In this document: in pieces, positions 25,685 through 63,009 of the stretch | Position numbering within the stretch: the stretch's first letter is position 1 | How the letters are laid out: each line of letters starts with the position of its first letter | Assembly: GCA_024635925.1 (NCBI GenBank) | Contig: JAGXHY010000014.1 | Coordinates: 1-64,000, forward strand | Direction of reading: 5' to 3' | Source: Bacillota bacterium | Lineage (GTDB): Bacteria > Bacillota > TC1 | DNA length: 64,000 nucleotides | Translations under genes and position numbers: made by a program | Notes under the pieces: model-generated | What the model saw: the letters and a program-made list of their open reading frames with translations, nothing else | Database searches by the model: none | Told to the model about the DNA's origin: nothing

Positions 25685-26593
25685 ATGGAAACTAACAGAA
25701 ATCGTCTAAAAGGATTTGCTTTAGTTATTTTAGCTACTTTGATTTATTCTGGTCAAAGTATAATTGCTCGTTCTGTTTTAATAGCTGGCTTCAGTCCATT
25801 AGTTTTATCTGCTATGAAATTAATTTCTGGCTTTGTGACATTAAGCATAATGATAATTATTTTCAAGAAAAAGTTGTTTTTTGATAAGAAAGATTTGTCA
25901 AAATGGTTAATATTTGCTATTTGTGGTGGTACATTTTTTGCATTAACTTTATCGTATTCTTTCAATTTATTAGGTGCCAGTCAAGGGGTTATCTATTTGT
26001 ATACTGCACCGGCTTTTACTGTGATTATTGCATATTTTTATTTAAAAGAAAAAATTACTAGAAGAAAACTTATTGCAGTTCTACTAGTATTAGCGGGAAC
26101 AGTAGCAGTAGCAGTAGGAGCACAAGGAAGTAGTTTTGAATTTAATTTCATCGGATTTTTATTTGGAATTGGTTCAGGAATAACTTATGGTATATTTAGT
26201 GTTATGGGCAAAAAACTAAGTGTAACTTATGATAGCTGGAATTTGAACTTCTTTTACATATTATTTGCTTCTTTGGCAATATCTCCTGTCATGTTTACAT
26301 TTGACTGGGGGACATTATTAACTACTGATTTAAATTTATTATTATGGGTTATTTTATATGGTTTCATGATTTATGGTTTAGGGAACTTCTTCTTTCTAAA
26401 AAGCATGAATTATTTAGAAGCAGGAGAAGTGATGATATTTTCTAATATGGAACCTTTGTTAGCAGTTATTTTAGCATCATTAATACTTGAAGAACGTCTA
26501 AGTTCATTACAAGTAGCCGGTTTTGTATCAATATTAGTAGCAATTTTTCTAATAGCAAAATCAGATTCAAACTATATCAAGTTAGAAGTATAA
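25685..26593 (+). CDS. EamA/DMT-superfamily transporter
   Basis: 302 residues with about ten hydrophobic helices arranged as two EamA repeats (about 9-140 and 155-295). Typical features are an early GFALVILATLIYSGQS helix and EPLLAVILASLILEE near the end. The family exports amino acids, nucleotide precursors or drugs; the substrate is not predictable here. It is the last + strand gene before the dif-like site and strand switch. Confidence 0.85.
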   Translation: METNRNRLKGFALVILATLIYSGQSIIARSVLIAGFSPLVLSAMKLISGFVTLSIMIIIFKKKLFFDKKDLSKWLIFAICGGTFFALTLSYSFNLLGASQGVIYLYTAPAFTVIIAYFYLKEKITRRKLIAVLLVLAGTVAVAVGAQGSSFEFNFIGFLFGIGSGITYGIFSVMGKKLSVTYDSWNLNFFYILFASLAISPVMFTFDWGTLLTTDLNLLLWVILYGFMIYGLGNFFFLKSMNYLEAGEVMIFSNMEPLLAVILASLILEERLSSLQVAGFVSILVAIFLIAKSDSNYIKLEV

Positions 26594-26630: not shown

Positions 26631-26658
26631 GGTTTACATAATATATATTATCGGTTAT
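26631..26658. other. dif: Candidate chromosomal dif site (XerC/XerD recombination site, replication terminus)
   Basis: Two 11-bp arms flank a 6-bp centre: GGTTTACATAA (26631-26641), TATATA (26642-26647), TTATCGGTTAT (26648-26658). Read on the - strand, the XerD-side arm TTATGTAAAC is identical to the B. subtilis dif arm as I recall it, and the full 28 bp matches at 22 positions. It lies in the 106-bp gap between the last + strand gene and the first - strand gene, where dif is expected. A xerD gene is at 62101-63009. Known: dif resolves chromosome dimers. Inferred: function here. Confidence 0.75.
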
Positions 26659-26699: not shown

Positions 26700-27500
26700 T
26701 TAATCTTCTATTCTTATTTGTATTGAAGTAATGTAATTTTCAATATCACTCTCAACAAATTGATCAATAATATTAAAATTAAAAGTCTCTTTAGTTAAAT
26801 TTAATATTTTATGTTTATCATACATTTTATTTATTGTATTTGTAATACTGTCATATGGTCCTTTATGATATCCACATAGATATGACCCACCTGGAATAAT
26901 TGAACATATTTCAGACGATGATTCAATTTCATTTTTCACTACTACTTCTTCACAATTAGTATCTATTATGTATGCTCCAAAAGATTTAATATCATCACAA
27001 TATATTGCAATTGTTGGATAAAAATAAAATATATCAGATTTGTATAATTGTTCCTCTGATCCTATTGGCAGATATTTTCTATCATCAAAATTTCTTATTT
27101 CAAAATTTTCAAATTTAACTTTTGGTAATTCATCTTGAATAAAAGATATTTTTCGTTGTATGATGTTATCAATACGCATCAGATCATCCCATTTTTCATG
27201 TAGTATTTTTGATTGTTCTTTAAATTTATCAAGAACTAATTCTACTTTCCTAGCTTTCATATAGGAATCAATATTTTTAATAGAATAGTCTAATCTTCTG
27301 AGATATCGAATACTGGCTAGTTCATATAGTTGATTAAATAGATAATATCTATAACCAGTCTCTTCATCTCTTTTATTTGGAGAAAAGAGACCTATTGAAT
27401 CATAGTATCGTAATGTTTGTGTGTTAATATTAAATAAATCACTTAATTCACCTATAGAAAAATAATCTTTAAACATATGTAAATATTCCATCTCTTTCAT
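26700..27500 (-). CDS. MerR-family activator with GyrI-like ligand-binding domain
   Basis: 266 residues, BmrR-like layout. It has an N-terminal winged HTH (FSIGELSDLFNINTQTLRYYDSIGLFSPN, split here as the sensor helix and wing), a coiled-coil dimer helix (about 75-125) and a C-terminal effector domain with GGSYLCGYHKGPYDS, a GyrI/SoxS-type small-molecule pocket. It is the third gene of the amidohydrolase-BMP-merR unit, whose promoter has a MerR-type 19-bp spacer; autoregulation is inferred. The start is uncertain: ATG 27476 (MFKDYF) fits the family better, although no start has a strong ribosome binding site. Confidence 0.88.
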   Translation of the reverse strand: MKEMEYLHMFKDYFSIGELSDLFNINTQTLRYYDSIGLFSPNKRDEETGYRYYLFNQLYELASIRYLRRLDYSIKNIDSYMKARKVELVLDKFKEQSKILHEKWDDLMRIDNIIQRKISFIQDELPKVKFENFEIRNFDDRKYLPIGSEEQLYKSDIFYFYPTIAIYCDDIKSFGAYIIDTNCEEVVVKNEIESSSEICSIIPGGSYLCGYHKGPYDSITNTINKMYDKHKILNLTKETFNFNIIDQFVESDIENYITSIQIRIED

Positions 27501-30081: not shown

Positions 30082-30116
30082 AAAAGAAAGAACATTTTAT
30101 CAATGTTCTTTCTTTT
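30082..30116 (-). terminator. Bidirectional hairpin terminator embedded in the end of the 268-aa gene
   Basis: A 15-bp perfect stem, AAAAGAAAGAACATT (30082-30096) with AATGTTCTTTCTTTT (30102-30116), loop 5. The TGA of the gene at 30100 lies in the loop and its last codons (KKKEH) form one arm. T-rich flanks on both strands allow termination in either direction. Confidence 0.75.
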
Positions 30117-30906
30117 TAATGGCAATATCAATAATTATTAAAGTGATTATAAAGATACTGCTAGCAATAATAAATATCTTAAAGTTAGATTTTAATAAGA
30201 TTTTTGATTGTGCTTTTGTTTCTATTTTATATTTTAAAGTTACATATCCACTTTTCTCAGTTATTTTGCCTTTATATATTAGTTCAACATTGTAACCTTC
30301 AACAATTTTCTCCGATGAAATATCCTTAACAACTCTATAATAGGGCAATTCACAATTATATTTATTATTTTTGCTAGTAAATTTAATTTTGTCAGTTAAC
30401 ATATACCATTCAAAATCATTATGAAGAATAATTTTTGGTATATCTATTAAATCTGCTTCTTCTATTTCATTATATATTTTTGTTGTATATACTAGCCTTT
30501 CATTCCAAGTTTTTAAATCTTTATAGACTGTTATAGCTTTATAACTACTATAATATAGTATAGTAGAATTATCCTTCACTATCTTTTTAGGAAATTTAGT
30601 ATAATCAATCTTTGTAATTTTTTTTAATTTTATAGTTTTATATATAATTCTACTATCAGTTTTAATTTTAAAATAATCAATATCAACTAGATTATATTTA
30701 TCAGTTTTGTTAGTAGATTTATCATATATATTTAGAGTATTAGTTACTTTAGAACCCGAAAATTTATTCCAGGGTATCTTTTTTTCAATATATTGCTTAT
30801 TATCTACTATTTCTTTATTGTTAACTATGTAATAAGTGGTTATTCCTGATCCTAGAATAATGAAGATTAAAAATGAAACTATTATTATATAAATTTTATT
30901 TTTCAT
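30100..30906 (-). CDS. Unrecognised two-TM membrane protein coupled to the surface protein gene
   Basis: 268 residues; I do not recognise the family. One membrane helix is N-terminal (about 4-28) and one C-terminal (about 238-262, followed by the positive tail KKKEH). The roughly 210 residues between are Lys/Tyr/Ile-rich, probably beta-rich and likely extracellular. No sortase TLxTC motif, protease motif or lipobox is seen. The ATG directly abuts the stop codon of the upstream LPXTG gene, and its GGAGG lies within that gene's last codons, so the two are translationally coupled. It may assemble, anchor or present the surface protein, but this is inference. Confidence 0.75.
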   Translation of the reverse strand: MKNKIYIIIVSFLIFIILGSGITTYYIVNNKEIVDNKQYIEKKIPWNKFSGSKVTNTLNIYDKSTNKTDKYNLVDIDYFKIKTDSRIIYKTIKLKKITKIDYTKFPKKIVKDNSTILYYSSYKAITVYKDLKTWNERLVYTTKIYNEIEEADLIDIPKIILHNDFEWYMLTDKIKFTSKNNKYNCELPYYRVVKDISSEKIVEGYNVELIYKGKITEKSGYVTLKYKIETKAQSKILLKSNFKIFIIASSIFIITLIIIDIAIKKKEH

Positions 30907-33189
30907 TTAGAACCTCCACTTGAAAATAAATAAATTACCAAATGATAATAATATTAATCCATTTATTAAAATATTTCTAGTTCCTGTCTTAGGTAAATAA
31001 CCTTTATTAAGGTTTAACTCTTTACTAAATGATCCTGTATCCCATTCGTCACCATTTTTTATTATAATTCCCTTATACTCTCCTTCTACTATTACATTAC
31101 AAGAATAGTAAAGTTTTTTTCTATCATCAAAAAAGTACTTTTTACATAAACTTTTAAAATCATTGCTTGTGCCATAAATATAAAGAGGATTCTTTTGTTT
31201 AAAACCTGGACTTACTTCATCATTGAATAAAATATTTATATTACTTATTATTTCATTTTTATTCAATATATTATTTTTATATAAATCTGTAATATTAATA
31301 ACATTACTCTCATCAGATCTAAAACTATTAGGTACAGATATATTACTCCTTTTATTAGTCTCTAATATTACAGAATATAGAGACTGAGACAGTTTTATAG
31401 AAGTAAATTCTCCACTAGTAAAATTATCAATATTGACTAGTTTATTAAAAACAATTCTATAACTTCTCAAATCATCACATTTGAATTTATTTTCTTTATC
31501 CCCATTATAATTATTACCTAATAAATATTCCTTTTTGTTATCTTTAACGAAAATACTATAGGTACCTTTTCCAAATACAGGTGTGGTAAATTCATTTCCA
31601 TTAGCTGTTGGTATTAATTTTATAATTACCTCTTTTATATCTTTTCTAGGAATTGAAATATTATCATTTATATCATTAGTAAAAATTCCTAGTATATTTT
31701 TTGTTTTTTGCTCTTTATTTGATGATAATAAATAATCTGGTACATCATTATACTCCTTTTTTACTTCTATAATATTATCTTCATCATCTTTATAAAAAAT
31801 ACGGTAGCCTGAAGCATCTATAAATTCTCCGATTTCAATTTTTTTATTAATATTAGCATATTCCATTGGGATAGCTATTTTTATTGAAAAGTTTTTTAGT
31901 TTTACATTTGAACAATTTATAGCTCCAAATACTTCATATTTAAGAGGTTGATTACTTGCCACTTGTTTATACCCTTTAAGTTGAATAAATGTCTCTGTAA
32001 GTGGTTTTTGAGCATTATAAACTGTTTTATTATATACGTTTCCATATTCAAGCACTTCTAAAGATTGAATTGCTATATTTTTAATAGAATATCCTGTTGG
32101 TGGAAAAACTTCACAATAATAATATGTACCAAGTTTACTAATATTATCTATCTGAATTAAACCTTGTTCGTTAGATTTATAAGTGCCGAGTAAATTTTTA
32201 TCATCATTAATATTATCTGGTTTCATAGTCCAAATTTTAAACTTAGCATCTATTAAAATTTCATTAGTTTCAATATCTTTTTTAATTAATTTAATAATTG
32301 ATATATTTTCATTAAGTTTAAAATCAAATATAGAATTAATATTTTTATCCATTAAAATTAAACCAACATAACTTTGACGTTCATCATTAATTGCTTTAAT
32401 AAAAACAATATCCTTCTTCCCTTCAGCAGAAACTTGAAATTTAAAATTTATTGGTTCATATGTTTTTGATAAAGGAACTGATATATAAAAGATTTCTCCT
32501 GGCAAAATAACTTTAGGATATTCTAAACTTGGAATACTACTACTAGTACAATTTAAAGTTATTGGTCCAGTAATATTTGAACATTCTAATTTAAAAGCTT
32601 TTCCCACTCTTGAAGTATTTCCAGGTATTTCAATGTTGTTTTCTGATAAAGACTTTATAACCATACTAGAGTATTCACTCTTACATGGTAAGTTTTTTGC
32701 TTTAATTATCATTTTTTTGCATTCAAGCTTTGCTGAAGGCAAACCTTTTTGATCATTAATATATTCTTCTGCTGACCTTCCATTAGTTAAATTTTTAAAT
32801 TCCATACTTAAACAACGTAAGGCCATTGCTGTAATACATTGATTTTCTTTAGCATTAAAATTATTTAAAATGACATTTGGATAACCATTTAAAGCTGCTG
32901 ATTTTAAAATAGCTTCTTGCTGGCTAGTAAATATACTCAAGTTATTTATAATAAGACCTTCATGTATTGAGCTCTCTGAACCAATTTTATTAGGTTCAAT
33001 ACAATAAATATAATCATCATGTTCCGTTTTTTGATTATATAAATTATGTTCATAAAATAAATTAGGTAACTTGTTATTACCCATAATTTTTACTGTGTCA
33101 CCAAAATTTAATGCTAATACAATTTGACTTGTACAAAATGTCATTAAAAAAATAGCTGATAATAAAATTAAATTTCTAAATTTGTTCAT
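30907..33189 (-). CDS. LPXTG-anchored surface protein with predicted thioester and Cna-B-type domains
   Basis: 760 residues from ATG 33189 (GGAGG 5 bases upstream). A signal peptide is seen (hydrophobic 6-24, cleavage near VLA-LN at 26). The next ~130 residues resemble a thioester domain: YCIEPNK with Cys63, NGYPN, and NQCITA with Gln117 as the likely bond partner. A Cna-B/SpaA-like domain follows with KKDIETNE and YYCEVFPPTGYS (its Glu could close an isopeptide bond). After further beta-rich sequence comes a sorting signal LPKTG, a hydrophobic helix and the tail KWRF. Such proteins bind host or cell surfaces covalently. No sortase gene is in the window. Confidence 0.8.
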   Translation of the reverse strand: MNKFRNLILLSAIFLMTFCTSQIVLALNFGDTVKIMGNNKLPNLFYEHNLYNQKTEHDDYIYCIEPNKIGSESSIHEGLIINNLSIFTSQQEAILKSAALNGYPNVILNNFNAKENQCITAMALRCLSMEFKNLTNGRSAEEYINDQKGLPSAKLECKKMIIKAKNLPCKSEYSSMVIKSLSENNIEIPGNTSRVGKAFKLECSNITGPITLNCTSSSIPSLEYPKVILPGEIFYISVPLSKTYEPINFKFQVSAEGKKDIVFIKAINDERQSYVGLILMDKNINSIFDFKLNENISIIKLIKKDIETNEILIDAKFKIWTMKPDNINDDKNLLGTYKSNEQGLIQIDNISKLGTYYYCEVFPPTGYSIKNIAIQSLEVLEYGNVYNKTVYNAQKPLTETFIQLKGYKQVASNQPLKYEVFGAINCSNVKLKNFSIKIAIPMEYANINKKIEIGEFIDASGYRIFYKDDEDNIIEVKKEYNDVPDYLLSSNKEQKTKNILGIFTNDINDNISIPRKDIKEVIIKLIPTANGNEFTTPVFGKGTYSIFVKDNKKEYLLGNNYNGDKENKFKCDDLRSYRIVFNKLVNIDNFTSGEFTSIKLSQSLYSVILETNKRSNISVPNSFRSDESNVINITDLYKNNILNKNEIISNINILFNDEVSPGFKQKNPLYIYGTSNDFKSLCKKYFFDDRKKLYYSCNVIVEGEYKGIIIKNGDEWDTGSFSKELNLNKGYLPKTGTRNILINGLILLSFGNLFIFKWRF

Positions 33190-33233
33190 TAATACCTCCA
33201 AAAATTGTGATATTAATGTATACGATTTAAATT

Positions 33234-33315: not shown

Positions 33316-33339
33316 TAGTTTTTAGAAAGAGTGATAATG

Positions 33340-33729
33340 ATGGTTTATATTAAAAAATTAATGCTTAATATAATGTTACCTTTAGGTATTATTTTTACCT
33401 TTCAATTATTAGGTAACCTTATAAATAAATATTTAATAAACTTTCTACCAGGGCCAATTATTGGTATGTTATTACTATTGACAGCATTAATTTTTAATAT
33501 AGTTCCTTACAAGATAATTGAAGTTTTTACTGCTTTCCTCGTAAAACATATAAGTTTTTTTCTGATTCCAACAAATATATCGTTGATAATTATAGTACCC
33601 AAAATTCAAAATTACTTTATTAGAATAATATTAATGCTAGTAATTTCTTTAATTAGCGTAATAATTGTTACTGGTACTTTTGCTAATTGGTATAACAAAA
33701 AAACAATTAAAGGTGATGCTGATGAATAA
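33340..33729 (+). CDS. lrgA: CidA/LrgA-family holin-like membrane protein
   Basis: About 130 residues with four hydrophobic helices and the family motif LPGPIIGMLLLL, followed by the IPTNISLIII region. LrgA/CidA proteins were first described as holin-like modulators of murein hydrolase export; more recent work links them to pyruvate or overflow metabolite transport. The start is ATG 33340 or ATG 33337, both after GAAAGAG; the GTG at 33331 lies inside that site. It overlaps lrgB by 8 bases. One of two + strand genes in the leftward half. Confidence 0.85.
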   Translation: MVYIKKLMLNIMLPLGIIFTFQLLGNLINKYLINFLPGPIIGMLLLLTALIFNIVPYKIIEVFTAFLVKHISFFLIPTNISLIIIVPKIQNYFIRIILMLVISLISVIIVTGTFANWYNKKTIKGDADE

Positions 33730-34420
33730 TTTATATCCATTACTGAGTATTATAATTACAATCCTTATATATTTTATTTTTTTAAAGATTTACAATTTAA
33801 AAAAACATATATTATTACACCCAAATATTGCAGCAACAATAATTTTAATAAGTTTATTATATGTCACTGAAATACCATTTGAGGTATACAATTCAGGAGG
33901 GAAATATATAACTTCATTCTTAGGAGTATGTATTGTAGTACTTGCTATACCCATGTATCAAAAAATTAAATTATTAAAAGAACATTTTAAACTAATTATA
34001 CTAACTAGTCTTATAAGTATTTATACTTCTTTCTTTTCTATGTTAATATTAGCTAAAATTCTTAAAGTCCCAAAAGTATTTGTATATAGTCTTATTCCTA
34101 AGTCCATAACTTCTGCAATGGCTATAGAGGCTAGTATTTTTACAAATGGTAATCAATCAATAGCTATCTTAGGTGTTATGGTTTCTGGTATCTTAGGTGC
34201 AATAATTGGTAGATTTGTATTAGAAAAAATAAGAGTTAATAATCCAATAGCTAGAGGTTGTGCTTTTGGTATGAGTGCTCATGTACTTGGAACTACACAA
34301 GCATTAGAAGAAGGCGGAATTACAGGATCATTTAGTGCAATAAGTATACCAGTTACAGGCGTTTTAACGATTATTAATTTACCTCTTTTTACCAAATTAG
34401 TTGATAATATATTAAAATAA
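33722..34420 (+). CDS. lrgB: LrgB-family membrane protein
   Basis: 232 residues from ATG 33722, which overlaps the lrgA stop in ATGAATAA; the longer frame upstream lies inside lrgA. Several membrane helices, with the LrgB signatures SVIPKS-like LIPKSITSAMAIEAS and GCAFGMSAHVLGTTQALEEG. It works with LrgA in the membrane; the function is as uncertain as for that partner. It ends at a terminator shared with the convergent ynbB. Confidence 0.9.
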   Translation: MNNLYPLLSIIITILIYFIFLKIYNLKKHILLHPNIAATIILISLLYVTEIPFEVYNSGGKYITSFLGVCIVVLAIPMYQKIKLLKEHFKLIILTSLISIYTSFFSMLILAKILKVPKVFVYSLIPKSITSAMAIEASIFTNGNQSIAILGVMVSGILGAIIGRFVLEKIRVNNPIARGCAFGMSAHVLGTTQALEEGGITGSFSAISIPVTGVLTIINLPLFTKLVDNILK

Positions 34421-34484: not shown

Positions 34485-35708
34485 TTAATTATTAATTAAA
34501 GAAATTGCTTCAAAAGAATTATCAATAGCTATTTTTGAATAATAAAAACTTGTAGATCCTTGTAAATAGGCAATATAAGGTTCTCTAATTGGTGCATCTG
34601 CTGATAATTCTAATGAACTGCCAGAGATGAAAGAACCAGAAGCCATAATAACCTGACAGTTATATCCTGGCATATCCCATGGATATGGAACAGCCGAACT
34701 ATCAATAGGTGAAAATTTTTGTATTGTTTGAATAAATTTAATTAATTTATTTTTATTCTTAAAAGTGATACTTTGTATTATGTCTGTTCTCTTCTCGTCT
34801 ATTGTTGGTGAAATTTCAAATCCTAACTTTTCAAAAAGTAATCCTGCATAATGAACGCTAAGTAAGCATTCTTCGACAATTTTAGGAGCCATAAAAATAC
34901 CTTGAAACATCAAACGTAAGTCATTTGAGTTTTCACAACCAATTTCTTTTCCAATACCAGGAACTGTAAATTCGCAGCTAATCTTTTTAATTAATTTTTC
35001 TCTACCAACAATATAACCACCAGATAGAGCAATAGTTCCACCCGGATTTTTTATTAATGATCCTGCAATAATATCAGCTCCTACCTCTAAAGGTTCTTGC
35101 ATTTCAACGAATTCCCCGTAACAATTATCAACAAATATAATTATATCAGGATATTTAGCTTTAATAACTTTAGCTACTTCTTCTATCTCGGAAATTGTTA
35201 TAGATCTTCTTGTTGAATACCCTCTTGATCTTTGAATAATTACCATTTTATAGTTTTTAAATTTTTCGTCTTTTAGGATATCCATATTTATTTTACCTAA
35301 ACCTGTTAAGTCAATTTTATCATAATCTAACTTCAGTTTATTTATTAATCCATTTTCATCATTTAAAGATTTTTCCAAAGTATCATATAATTCTCCAGTT
35401 AAAGATATAATTTTATCACCATAGTCTAGTAAAGCTCTAAAAGCTGTATAAATAGTATGTGTACCTGAAGCAAAATTACTAGAAACTAAAGCATCTTCAC
35501 CTTTAAATATATTAGCATAAAGTAAATTAAGCTTCCTTCTTCCATAGTCATCATAGCCATAGCCAGTAGACCCTGTAAATGCTTCAGTAGTAATATTGCA
35601 TTCTAAAAAGGCATTTAAAACCTTTTCATGGTTAAATATTGAAATTACTGAATATTCTTTTCTAAAAATATTTAATTGTGCTGTAGCTTCCCTAACCAGA
35701 TTATTCAT
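34485..35708 (-). CDS. ynbB: Methionine gamma-lyase-family PLP protein (YnbB / 'aluminium resistance' family)
   Basis: 407 residues, fold-type I PLP enzyme of COG4100. Motifs are TGSTGYGYDDYGR, ASGTHTIYTAFRALL, the VDNCYGEF aspartate and the PLP lysine in GSLIKNPGGTIALSGGYIVG. The biochemical role of the family is poorly defined; cystathionine/methionine gamma-lyase-like chemistry is assumed from homology. It shares one base with leuA (TAATG), so it is translationally coupled to leuA and lies downstream of the leucine T-box. Confidence 0.9.
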   Translation of the reverse strand: MNNLVREATAQLNIFRKEYSVISIFNHEKVLNAFLECNITTEAFTGSTGYGYDDYGRRKLNLLYANIFKGEDALVSSNFASGTHTIYTAFRALLDYGDKIISLTGELYDTLEKSLNDENGLINKLKLDYDKIDLTGLGKINMDILKDEKFKNYKMVIIQRSRGYSTRRSITISEIEEVAKVIKAKYPDIIIFVDNCYGEFVEMQEPLEVGADIIAGSLIKNPGGTIALSGGYIVGREKLIKKISCEFTVPGIGKEIGCENSNDLRLMFQGIFMAPKIVEECLLSVHYAGLLFEKLGFEISPTIDEKRTDIIQSITFKNKNKLIKFIQTIQKFSPIDSSAVPYPWDMPGYNCQVIMASGSFISGSSLELSADAPIREPYIAYLQGSTSFYYSKIAIDNSFEAISLINN

Positions 35709-37396
35709 TAGGCCTTTTTACTCCGATTAATAGCACTAATTATAGCTTTTATTGGTGCAGAAGTAATGTTTGGGGATATGCCGACCCCAAAATATCTTTC
35801 TTTTGTATTTAAATTTTCAAGTTGCACATAAGTTATTGCCTGTGATTTATCCCCTTCTTCTCTTGCATGTTCATCATAAGAAGTAACTGTGTATTTACCT
35901 AAATTAAATTGTTCAATTGCATTTAAAAAAGCAGAAACAGGACCATTACCTATACCTGAGATATTCTTTTCTTCTCCATATATTTTTATTACGCCTTCTA
36001 AAGTAACAACAGAATCAGCATCTTCATTAGTTGAATCTTCATTAACTTTATATTTTATTAATTCTAAAAAGCCAGAAATATTAATATAATTATCTTCAAA
36101 TAATTTTAAAATATCCTCTTTTTTTAATTCAATTCCTTTGTCATCTGTATCTTTTTGGATAATTTTTGCTACTTCAGGATGCATATTTTTTGGTAATTTA
36201 AAACCGTATTCTTTTTCTAAAATAAAAGCTACACCACCTTTACCTGATTGACTATTTATTCGTATAACTGCTTCATATTTACATCCAACATCACTAGGGT
36301 CAATCGGAAGATAGGGAACTTCCCAAAAATCAACATTATTATCCGTTCTATATTTAAAACCTTTATTTATTGCATCTTGATGAGAACCACTAAAAGCTGT
36401 ATGAACCAAATCTCCAACATAAGGGTGTCTTGGATGAATAGGTAGACGTGTCACCTGTTGGAAAATATCTTTTATCTCCTCAACATCATAAAAGTCAAGT
36501 TCAGGATCAATTCCTTGTGAATAAAGATTTAAAGCAACTGTTAAAAGGTCTGTATTTCCTGTCCTTTCACCATTTCCAAATAAAGTACCTTCAACCCTAT
36601 CAGCTCCAGCAAGTAGTCCTAGTTCTGTTGCCGCAATACCTGTGCCTCTATCATTATGAGCGTGTAAACTTATTTGTATAACATCTCTATATTTTATATG
36701 ATTACAAAACCATTCAATTTGGTCAGCATAAATATTTGGAGTACTCATTTCTACAGTAGAAGGTAGGTTTATTATGGCTAAGTTCTCTTTTGAAGGTTGC
36801 CATACATCTAAAACTGCATTAGAAACCTCAACTGCATACTCAACCTCAGTTCCAGTAAAACTCTCAGGTGAATACTCAAGAACAACATTCATCCCTTCTT
36901 TTCTAGCTCCTTCAGCAAATTTCTTAACTAGAAGAGTTCCTTCAGTTGCTATTTTTTTTATTTCTTCTTTATTTTTATTGAATACAACTCTTCTTTGTAG
37001 CTCAGATGTTGAGTTATATACATGAACAATAGCATTTTTAACACCTTTTAGTGCTTCAAAGGTTTTAGCTATAAGATGTTCTCTAGCTTGAGTTAAAACT
37101 TGGATGCTAACATCATCTGGAATTAATTTTTCATCAACTAATTTTCTTAAAAAATTAAACTCTGTTTCTGAGGCTGAAGGAAAGCCAACTTCAATATTTT
37201 TAAATCCAATTTTAATTAACATTTTAAATAATAAAAGTTTTTCATCTATCCCCATAGGTATTGGTAAAGCTTGATTACCATCTCGTAAATCTACACTACA
37301 CCAAATAGGTGCTTTTGTAGTTATTTTTTCAGGCCAAGTTCTTTCTTTAAAATCAATTTTAATATAAGGTTTATATTTTTTGTAATTCATAGCCAT
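35708..37396 (-). CDS. leuA: 2-isopropylmalate synthase (long type)
   Basis: About 562 residues of the long, LeuA2-type synthase. The catalytic TIM barrel has CSVDLRDGNQAL (metal Asp, Arg) and SLHAHNDRGTG (metal His-x-His). The C-terminal LeuA regulatory domain senses leucine. It condenses 2-oxoisovalerate and acetyl-CoA. The open frame extends to 37438, but those codons form the T-box terminator; I place the start at ATG 37396 (MAMNYKKYKP), 11 bases after AAAGGAG, with 37390 and 37405 as alternatives. leuBCD are not in the window. Confidence 0.95.
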   Translation of the reverse strand: MAMNYKKYKPYIKIDFKERTWPEKITTKAPIWCSVDLRDGNQALPIPMGIDEKLLLFKMLIKIGFKNIEVGFPSASETEFNFLRKLVDEKLIPDDVSIQVLTQAREHLIAKTFEALKGVKNAIVHVYNSTSELQRRVVFNKNKEEIKKIATEGTLLVKKFAEGARKEGMNVVLEYSPESFTGTEVEYAVEVSNAVLDVWQPSKENLAIINLPSTVEMSTPNIYADQIEWFCNHIKYRDVIQISLHAHNDRGTGIAATELGLLAGADRVEGTLFGNGERTGNTDLLTVALNLYSQGIDPELDFYDVEEIKDIFQQVTRLPIHPRHPYVGDLVHTAFSGSHQDAINKGFKYRTDNNVDFWEVPYLPIDPSDVGCKYEAVIRINSQSGKGGVAFILEKEYGFKLPKNMHPEVAKIIQKDTDDKGIELKKEDILKLFEDNYINISGFLELIKYKVNEDSTNEDADSVVTLEGVIKIYGEEKNISGIGNGPVSAFLNAIEQFNLGKYTVTSYDEHAREEGDKSQAITYVQLENLNTKERYFGVGISPNITSAPIKAIISAINRSKKA

Positions 37397-37413
37397 GTTA
37401 AACATATCTCCTT

Positions 37414-37645
37414 TCATAAAAAAATCTTCCATCTCCACAATAGAGACGAAAGAATCGCGGTACCACTCTAATTCATATAATATGCCCTCAAATTCTATAA
37501 CGGGAACTCCCGGAAAACCTTAAATATACTTCAGGCCAACTATTCTGAGGTGAGTTCCTTAAATGTTTCTTGTTATTTTCCACCAAACAATAACTCTCTA
37601 TAAATCAACTATAAAAGTAGTAGTCCTCTTCATCATATTTCACCT
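37414..37645 (-). promoter_or_regulatory. Leucine T-box riboswitch of leuA-ynbB
   Basis: Reading the - strand, a ~230-nt leader contains Stem I elements (GAAGAGGAC, AGAGAG, GGTGGAAA), a candidate specifier CTC (Leu) at 37554-37552 within GAACTCACC, and the T-box AGAGTGGTACCGCG (37469-37456). Then comes a terminator: CGTCTCTA (37448-37441) with TGGAGATG (37437-37430), and T7 at 37424-37418. Uncharged tRNA-Leu should stabilise the antiterminator and switch on leuA. The specifier is by inspection, not folding. Confidence 0.9.
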
Positions 37646-62100: not shown

Positions 62101-63009
62101 TTATGCTCTTGGATGAGTTTTATCATATACTTTCTTTATTTGTTTCATACTTAAATGAGTATATATTTCAGTTGTTGCTATATCAGCGTGTCCCAACATT
62201 TCTTGCACACTTCTTAAATCAGCTCCATTTTCTAATAAATGGGTTGCAAAGGAGTGTCTAAGTGTATGTGGTGATAAATGCTTTTTAATACCTGCTTTTT
62301 TTCCATATTTCACTAATATTTTAAAAAAACCTTGTCTAGACATAGGCTTACCTCTTGAGTTTAGAAATAAAACTTTACTTTTAATATTTTTTAAAATTAC
62401 TGGACGAATATTTTCTAAGTAGCTTTTTAAAAAATCTAGTGCTATTTCACCAATAGGAATTATTCGTTCCTTATTTCCTTTACCGTAACATCTTATAAAT
62501 CCTAATTCAATGTTTATGTCTTCTGTATTTAGAGCTAACAGTTCACTAACTCTTAAGCCTGCTCCATATATTATCTCTAACATAGTTCTATCTCTATAAC
62601 CTAAAAGACTTTTGATATTAACTATGTCTAGCAATTTGTCTATTTCAGATACTGTTAAATAGTCTGGTAATTTCCTATCCTTTTTAGGAGAGTCTATTAT
62701 ATCAGTTGGATTTTTCTTAATAATACCTTCTCTAATTAAAAACTTAAAATAACTTTTTAAAGAAGCTATATATCTCGCTTGACTTCTTTTACTTATTCCA
62801 TCAGTATTAATTTTTTTAAAATATTTCAATAAATATTCTTTGTTTATATCTTGAATATTATCAACTTCTATTTTAAGATCATTAATTAAAAATATGAAAA
62901 ACTTATTAATATCGCCAAGATAACTATCTACGGTATTATTAGATAATCCTTTTTCTATAGAAAGAAAATGCAAATAATTTTCCAATAAAAATAAATTATT
63001 TATTTTCAT
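62101..63009 (-). CDS. xerD: Site-specific tyrosine recombinase XerD
   Basis: 302 residues. An N-terminal SAM-like core-binding domain (1-90) is followed by the catalytic domain with Arg153 (GAGLRVSE), Lys177, His248-x-x-Arg251 (PHTLRHSF), His274 and nucleophile Tyr283 (IYTHLS). Context (next to punA and scpB, no phage genes) and the closing HPRA identify the chromosomal Xer recombinase. It would act with a XerC at the dif-like site at 26631-26658. It overlaps scpB by 14 bases. Confidence 0.93.
   Translation of the reverse strand: MKINNLFLLENYLHFLSIEKGLSNNTVDSYLGDINKFFIFLINDLKIEVDNIQDINKEYLLKYFKKINTDGISKRSQARYIASLKSYFKFLIREGIIKKNPTDIIDSPKKDRKLPDYLTVSEIDKLLDIVNIKSLLGYRDRTMLEIIYGAGLRVSELLALNTEDINIELGFIRCYGKGNKERIIPIGEIALDFLKSYLENIRPVILKNIKSKVLFLNSRGKPMSRQGFFKILVKYGKKAGIKKHLSPHTLRHSFATHLLENGADLRSVQEMLGHADIATTEIYTHLSMKQIKKVYDKTHPRA

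Follow-up and report, generated by a model that had tools for sequence, protein, structure and literature searches.

The window, by which we mean the whole 64,000-nucleotide stretch of DNA analysed here, includes a 28-bp sequence at nucleotides 26631 to 26658 that has the architecture of a dif site, in which a 6-bp centre separates two 11-bp arms that form an imperfect palindrome. On the + strand the sequence reads GGTTTACATAA-TATATA-TTATCGGTTAT. The XerD-side arm, GGTTTACATAA, occupies nucleotides 26631-26641; the central region TATATA (26642-26647) is the same in B. subtilis, and the XerC-side arm, TTATCGGTTAT, occupies 26648-26658. The - strand reading, ATAACCGATAATATATATTATGTAAACC, is the orientation in which B. 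subtilis dif is usually written. Direct reading of the sequence located the 28-mer at the coordinates given in an earlier note on this DNA, and the 11+6+11 layout described there holds. The 6-bp centre of dif is the place of strand exchange (PMC5357621).

The site is found in a 106-bp gap with the 3' ends of two convergent genes on either side. The last gene of the left arm, coding for an EamA-family transporter (25685-26593, + strand), ends 37 bp before the site, and the first gene of the right arm, coding for a MerR-type regulator with a GyrI-like domain (26700-27500, - strand), has its 3' end toward it. The left side is a run of exactly 22 consecutive + strand ORFs (329 to 26593), the number counted earlier, and the right side is the nearly continuous - strand run that had been described, its sole break within the window being the lrgA/lrgB pair (33331-34420). 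On the contig that includes the window, 95.5% of the coding bases examined are co-directional with the predicted replication forks.

Two other features of the right arm were observed. Just right of the site, nucleotides 30100-33201 (- strand) include two AT-rich genes (22-25% GC), one coding for a 764-amino acid surface protein with a SpaA/prealbumin-like domain and the other for a 268-amino acid product without a family match; this pair diverges much faster among congeners (mostly 35-63% identity) than the surrounding genes. A T-box leader (RF00230, 127 bits) is located at 37439-37642 (- strand) and immediately precedes a gene (35708-37438) that is 2-isopropylmalate synthase-like.

Resemblance to B. 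subtilis dif and position on the chromosome

Comparison with the B. subtilis dif sequence printed by Kono et al. in 2011, ACTTCCTAGAATATATATTATGTAAACT (PMC3025954), confirmed the agreement at 22 of 28 positions given in the earlier note. The accompanying claim that the XerD arm equals that of B. subtilis is correct for 10 of its 11 bases and fails at the outermost one; the other five of the six differences are located in the XerC arm, and all six central bases are equal. When B. subtilis dif was used as query, nucleotides 26631-26658 were the best match in the window, the runner-up having 9 mismatches. Matches with 6 or fewer mismatches were nevertheless obtained in 4 of 200 random 64-kb sequences with the length and dinucleotide make-up of the window. 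Taken alone the 22/28 match is therefore weak evidence, mildly significant, and in an AT-rich genome it is insufficient; the identification of the site as dif rests on its position and conservation. The 28-mer is present in single copy, with up to 3 mismatches allowed, both in the window, where 0 chance matches are expected, and in the whole draft genome (1,430,721 bp in 34 contigs, 94.85% complete), and no better candidate was found. The expectation that the sequence would be unique was thus borne out.

The + strand GC skew is about +0.2 over the 26 kb to the left of the site and about -0.2 to its right, and the cumulative GC skew peaks 101 bp (+101) from the site, which agrees with the sign switch that the earlier note had predicted near 26.6 kb. 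As the draft is in 34 contigs, the skew of this genome was sampled by stretches and not over the whole. The intergenic bases, which are few, also change sign, from +0.309 on the left to -0.192 on the right. On the other hand, three right-arm genes that are oriented head-on have positive skew on the + strand. The skew of the window is therefore partly tied to the coding strand, and the nearness of its peak to the site partly reflects the convergent gene ends.

Whole-chromosome views were obtained from the organism itself and from relatives, which comprise four congeners (G001-G004), a member of another genus of the same family (G005) and three members of another family of the same order (G006-G008). 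The G005 contig of 1,586,453 bp, approximately the stated genome size, has dnaA at 1.3 kb; dif, at 803.9 kb, is 50.7% of the way round, with positive skew in 13 of 13 samples before dif and negative skew in 11 of 11 after it. The single contig of G006 (2,563,013 bp) has dnaA at 1.881 Mb and dif at 0.694 Mb, 46% of the circle apart, so that the position opposite the origin is clear in G005 and rough in G006. In the stretches sampled over the four contigs of G002 the skew changes sign twice, turning negative at dif on contig C1 and positive near dnaA on C2. The dnaA of the genome under study is on contig C10, where the skew minimum of the stretch read is about 1 kb away from it, and 18 other contigs that were sampled have a skew sign that is mostly uniform per stretch, some being mixed. 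Nucleotides 1-20000 of contig C3, which also carries a phage-type integrase, have an unusually strong GC skew (up to 0.5) and are perhaps a prophage. Contig C21 (5195 bp) has a short integrase fragment, Bacteroidota-like by eye, beside unrelated genes, and is possibly a contaminant of the draft genome.

Conservation of the site and of the flanking genes

Comparison with related genomes, another of the proposed checks, showed that congeners and relatives in the family and the order have this site in the corresponding position. The full 28-mer is found with 1-2 changes, one copy each, in G001, G002 and G004, and a version with 4 changes is found in G003. At the skew peak of all four congeners, the family relative and the three order relatives there is a site whose XerD arm and centre are identical to those described here or almost so. 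The skew maximum is at -46, +43, -36 and -23 bp from the site in G001 to G004 respectively, at +47 bp in G005, and at +463, +495 and +114 bp in G006, G007 and G008. A 24-bp block, GTTTACATAATATATATTATCGGT, is invariant across the five aligned genomes of the genus and its flanks vary; within it, 10 of the 11 bases of the XerD arm (26632-26641) are invariant. In the XerC arm the inner TTATCGG is kept to the level of the order and the outer bases are variable.

Among named public records, 26 bases of the site are shared by three uncultured genomes; two of these carry the label Bacillota and the third Fusobacteria. More distant members of the phylum with matches at 18-19 of 20 bases gave a mixed outcome: in G010, G012, G018, G019 (contig C50) and G039 the candidate is within 600 bp of the skew peak, in G011 and G014 the switch is less close to the candidate or a contig end interrupts it, and in G021, G026, G030 and for a second candidate in G019 the skew lends no support to the dif-like match. 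A scan of IMG/VR gave one match, in IMGVR_UViG_3300043331_002118 (24,492 bp), where nucleotides 2151-2178 are a complete dif-like site, AGTTTACATAATATATATTATCGGAAGT, downstream of the end of a gene that by eye resembles an amidase with an S-layer-type tail. This contig may represent a prophage located next to a host dif or integrated at it, or else host DNA that was binned as viral.

The gene order flanking the site is largely kept within the genus. The left side still has relA, the genes next after it, aspS and rarA in G005 and the order relatives, and the right side has lrgB, a Met_gamma_lyase-family gene and the region around ispH/rpsA and ylqF; the genes immediately adjoining the site are others in G003 and G005-G008, and the XerD arm is toward the relA side in every case. 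The earlier note had considered it unusual that relA, the ffh operon and tig-clpPX-lon would be among the last genes replicated. Since their places are kept across relatives, the late position of relA and of the ffh region (for ffh itself the data extend to the family level) is a feature of the clade, and the remark is only partly right. The tig-clpPX-lon genes are near dif in only part of the family: the distance is 23-24 kb in the genome under study and in G002 and increases to 91 kb in G005, and in G006 these genes are on the opposite arm, about 209 kb away.

These results bear on several other explanations of the 28-mer. The random sequences described above could suggest that an AT-rich sequence at a strand switch resembles dif by chance, but the site and its position are conserved in nine genomes of one order, and this conservation at the skew peak refutes the explanation, which is extremely improbable. 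Neither do we consider that a local inversion or an assembly join has produced a false strand switch, with the real terminus located elsewhere; a draft in 34 contigs could harbor such an artifact, but the same junction and flanking genes are found in the independently assembled G001 and G002, and partly in G004, where the contig is short, and the junction is also present in G003 and G005 with different adjacent genes. This synteny refutes the artifact, whose probability is next to nil.

A function in transcription has to be considered as well, as the sequence is partly palindromic, is located in a convergent gap and adjoins a MerR-type gene, and could be a bidirectional terminator or the binding site of the neighbouring regulator. 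Its predicted RNA fold is, however, no more stable than those of shuffled sequences (z +0.70), both neighbouring genes present their 3' ends to it, and G003 and G005-G008 keep the site with no homologue of either neighbour found beside it, so that this explanation is very improbable. The 28-mer is almost certainly the chromosomal dif of this bacterium, at the replication terminus, and the skew, the single copy and the presence of the same site in relatives support the original proposal that the window spans that terminus.

Recombinases and termination of replication

The window includes a gene coding for a XerD tyrosine recombinase (62101-63009, - strand; TIGR02225, 365.6 bits, cut-off 329.6) located 35 kb from dif, whose neighbours, named by eye from the sequence, resemble scpB and a purine nucleoside phosphorylase gene. 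XerC is encoded on contig C4 (TIGR02224, 341.8 bits, cut-off 335.15). One FtsK/SpoIIIE-family protein was found in the genome, a 763-amino acid product with 4TM, alpha, motor and gamma domains, and its gene is located about 44 kb from dif on the contig of the window. In G001, G002, G003 and G005, too, ftsK and one of the Xer genes are found within about 60 kb of dif. Over the genomes that they studied, Kono et al. report that xerC is for the most part close to dif and that xerD is close to the origin (PMC3025954); the order found here, with xerD near dif, differs from that trend, and we attach no functional weight to it.

The system is similar to that of B. subtilis, in which CodV and RipX correspond to XerC and XerD, in the 28-bp length, the 11+6+11 layout, the TATATA centre, the position at the terminus and the two recombinases, and differs from it in the bases mentioned above; in addition, B. 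subtilis has two pumps, SpoIIIE and SftA (PMC5357621), and one protein of this family was found here. E. coli likewise has two recombinases and an FtsK that includes a gamma domain, but the site found here is of the Firmicutes type, and the KOPS of E. coli, GGGNAGGG, is rare in this sequence. The difSL/XerS system of streptococci and lactococci has the same role. However, the two recombinases found here are each over the XerD or XerC cut-off and, with 134.0 and 142.3 bits, under the XerS cut-off of 267, and no recombinase gene directly adjoins the site; this does not agree with the single-recombinase system.

The present data comprise the site, its uniqueness and conservation, its position where skew and gene strand change, and the finding that XerC, XerD and an FtsK with a gamma domain are all encoded. 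By analogy with the known systems, a dimer formed by recombination between sister chromosomes would be resolved when FtsK, acting as a septal DNA pump, brings two copies of dif together and activates XerD; XerD and XerC would each bind one 11-bp arm, and strand exchange across the 6-bp TATATA would render two monomers again. The replication forks would likewise be expected to meet at or very near dif.

How near is a separate question. On the basis of many genomes, Kono et al. argued for termination in the vicinity of dif and not strictly at dif (PMC3025954). This argument, together with the positive skew of the three head-on genes, favours a true dif with termination spread over a wider zone, the sharp switch being set mainly by gene orientation. 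Against this, the intergenic skew also switches, as far as its few bases tell, and the skews of the two half-chromosomes of G005 meet at the same point; spreading of this kind is possible but unlikely. That replication in this clade ends at dif itself is somewhat more doubtful still. If true, it would bear on the debate about the point of termination, for which dif and a wider zone are the alternatives. The 28-mer can be considered an ordinary dif site, as textbooks would predict, and the most interesting observation that remains is the tight coincidence of the switch with dif, since in all six family members both skew and gene strand change no more than about 100 bp from dif, despite changes of the adjacent genes in some, the skew being partly coding-driven.

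In an uncultured Bacillota lineage, represented here by draft genomes only, the identification of dif fixes the terminus, and hence the replication arms, and provides a 28-bp landmark for orienting the contigs of the lineage. It also defines a terminus whose flanking genes stay put across an order, with relA, aspS and rarA on one side and lrgB, the Met_gamma_lyase-family gene and the region of ispH/rpsA and ylqF on the other.

A motif orienting FtsK was also sought in the sequence. Many G/A-rich words are polar and none is clearly above what composition predicts; the SRS, GAGAAGGG, and KOPS are too rare here to judge their polarity. In XerC (L007:1447-2391) a small insertion seems to split the match to the N-terminal SAM-like domain, and the same is seen in all five genomes of the genus.
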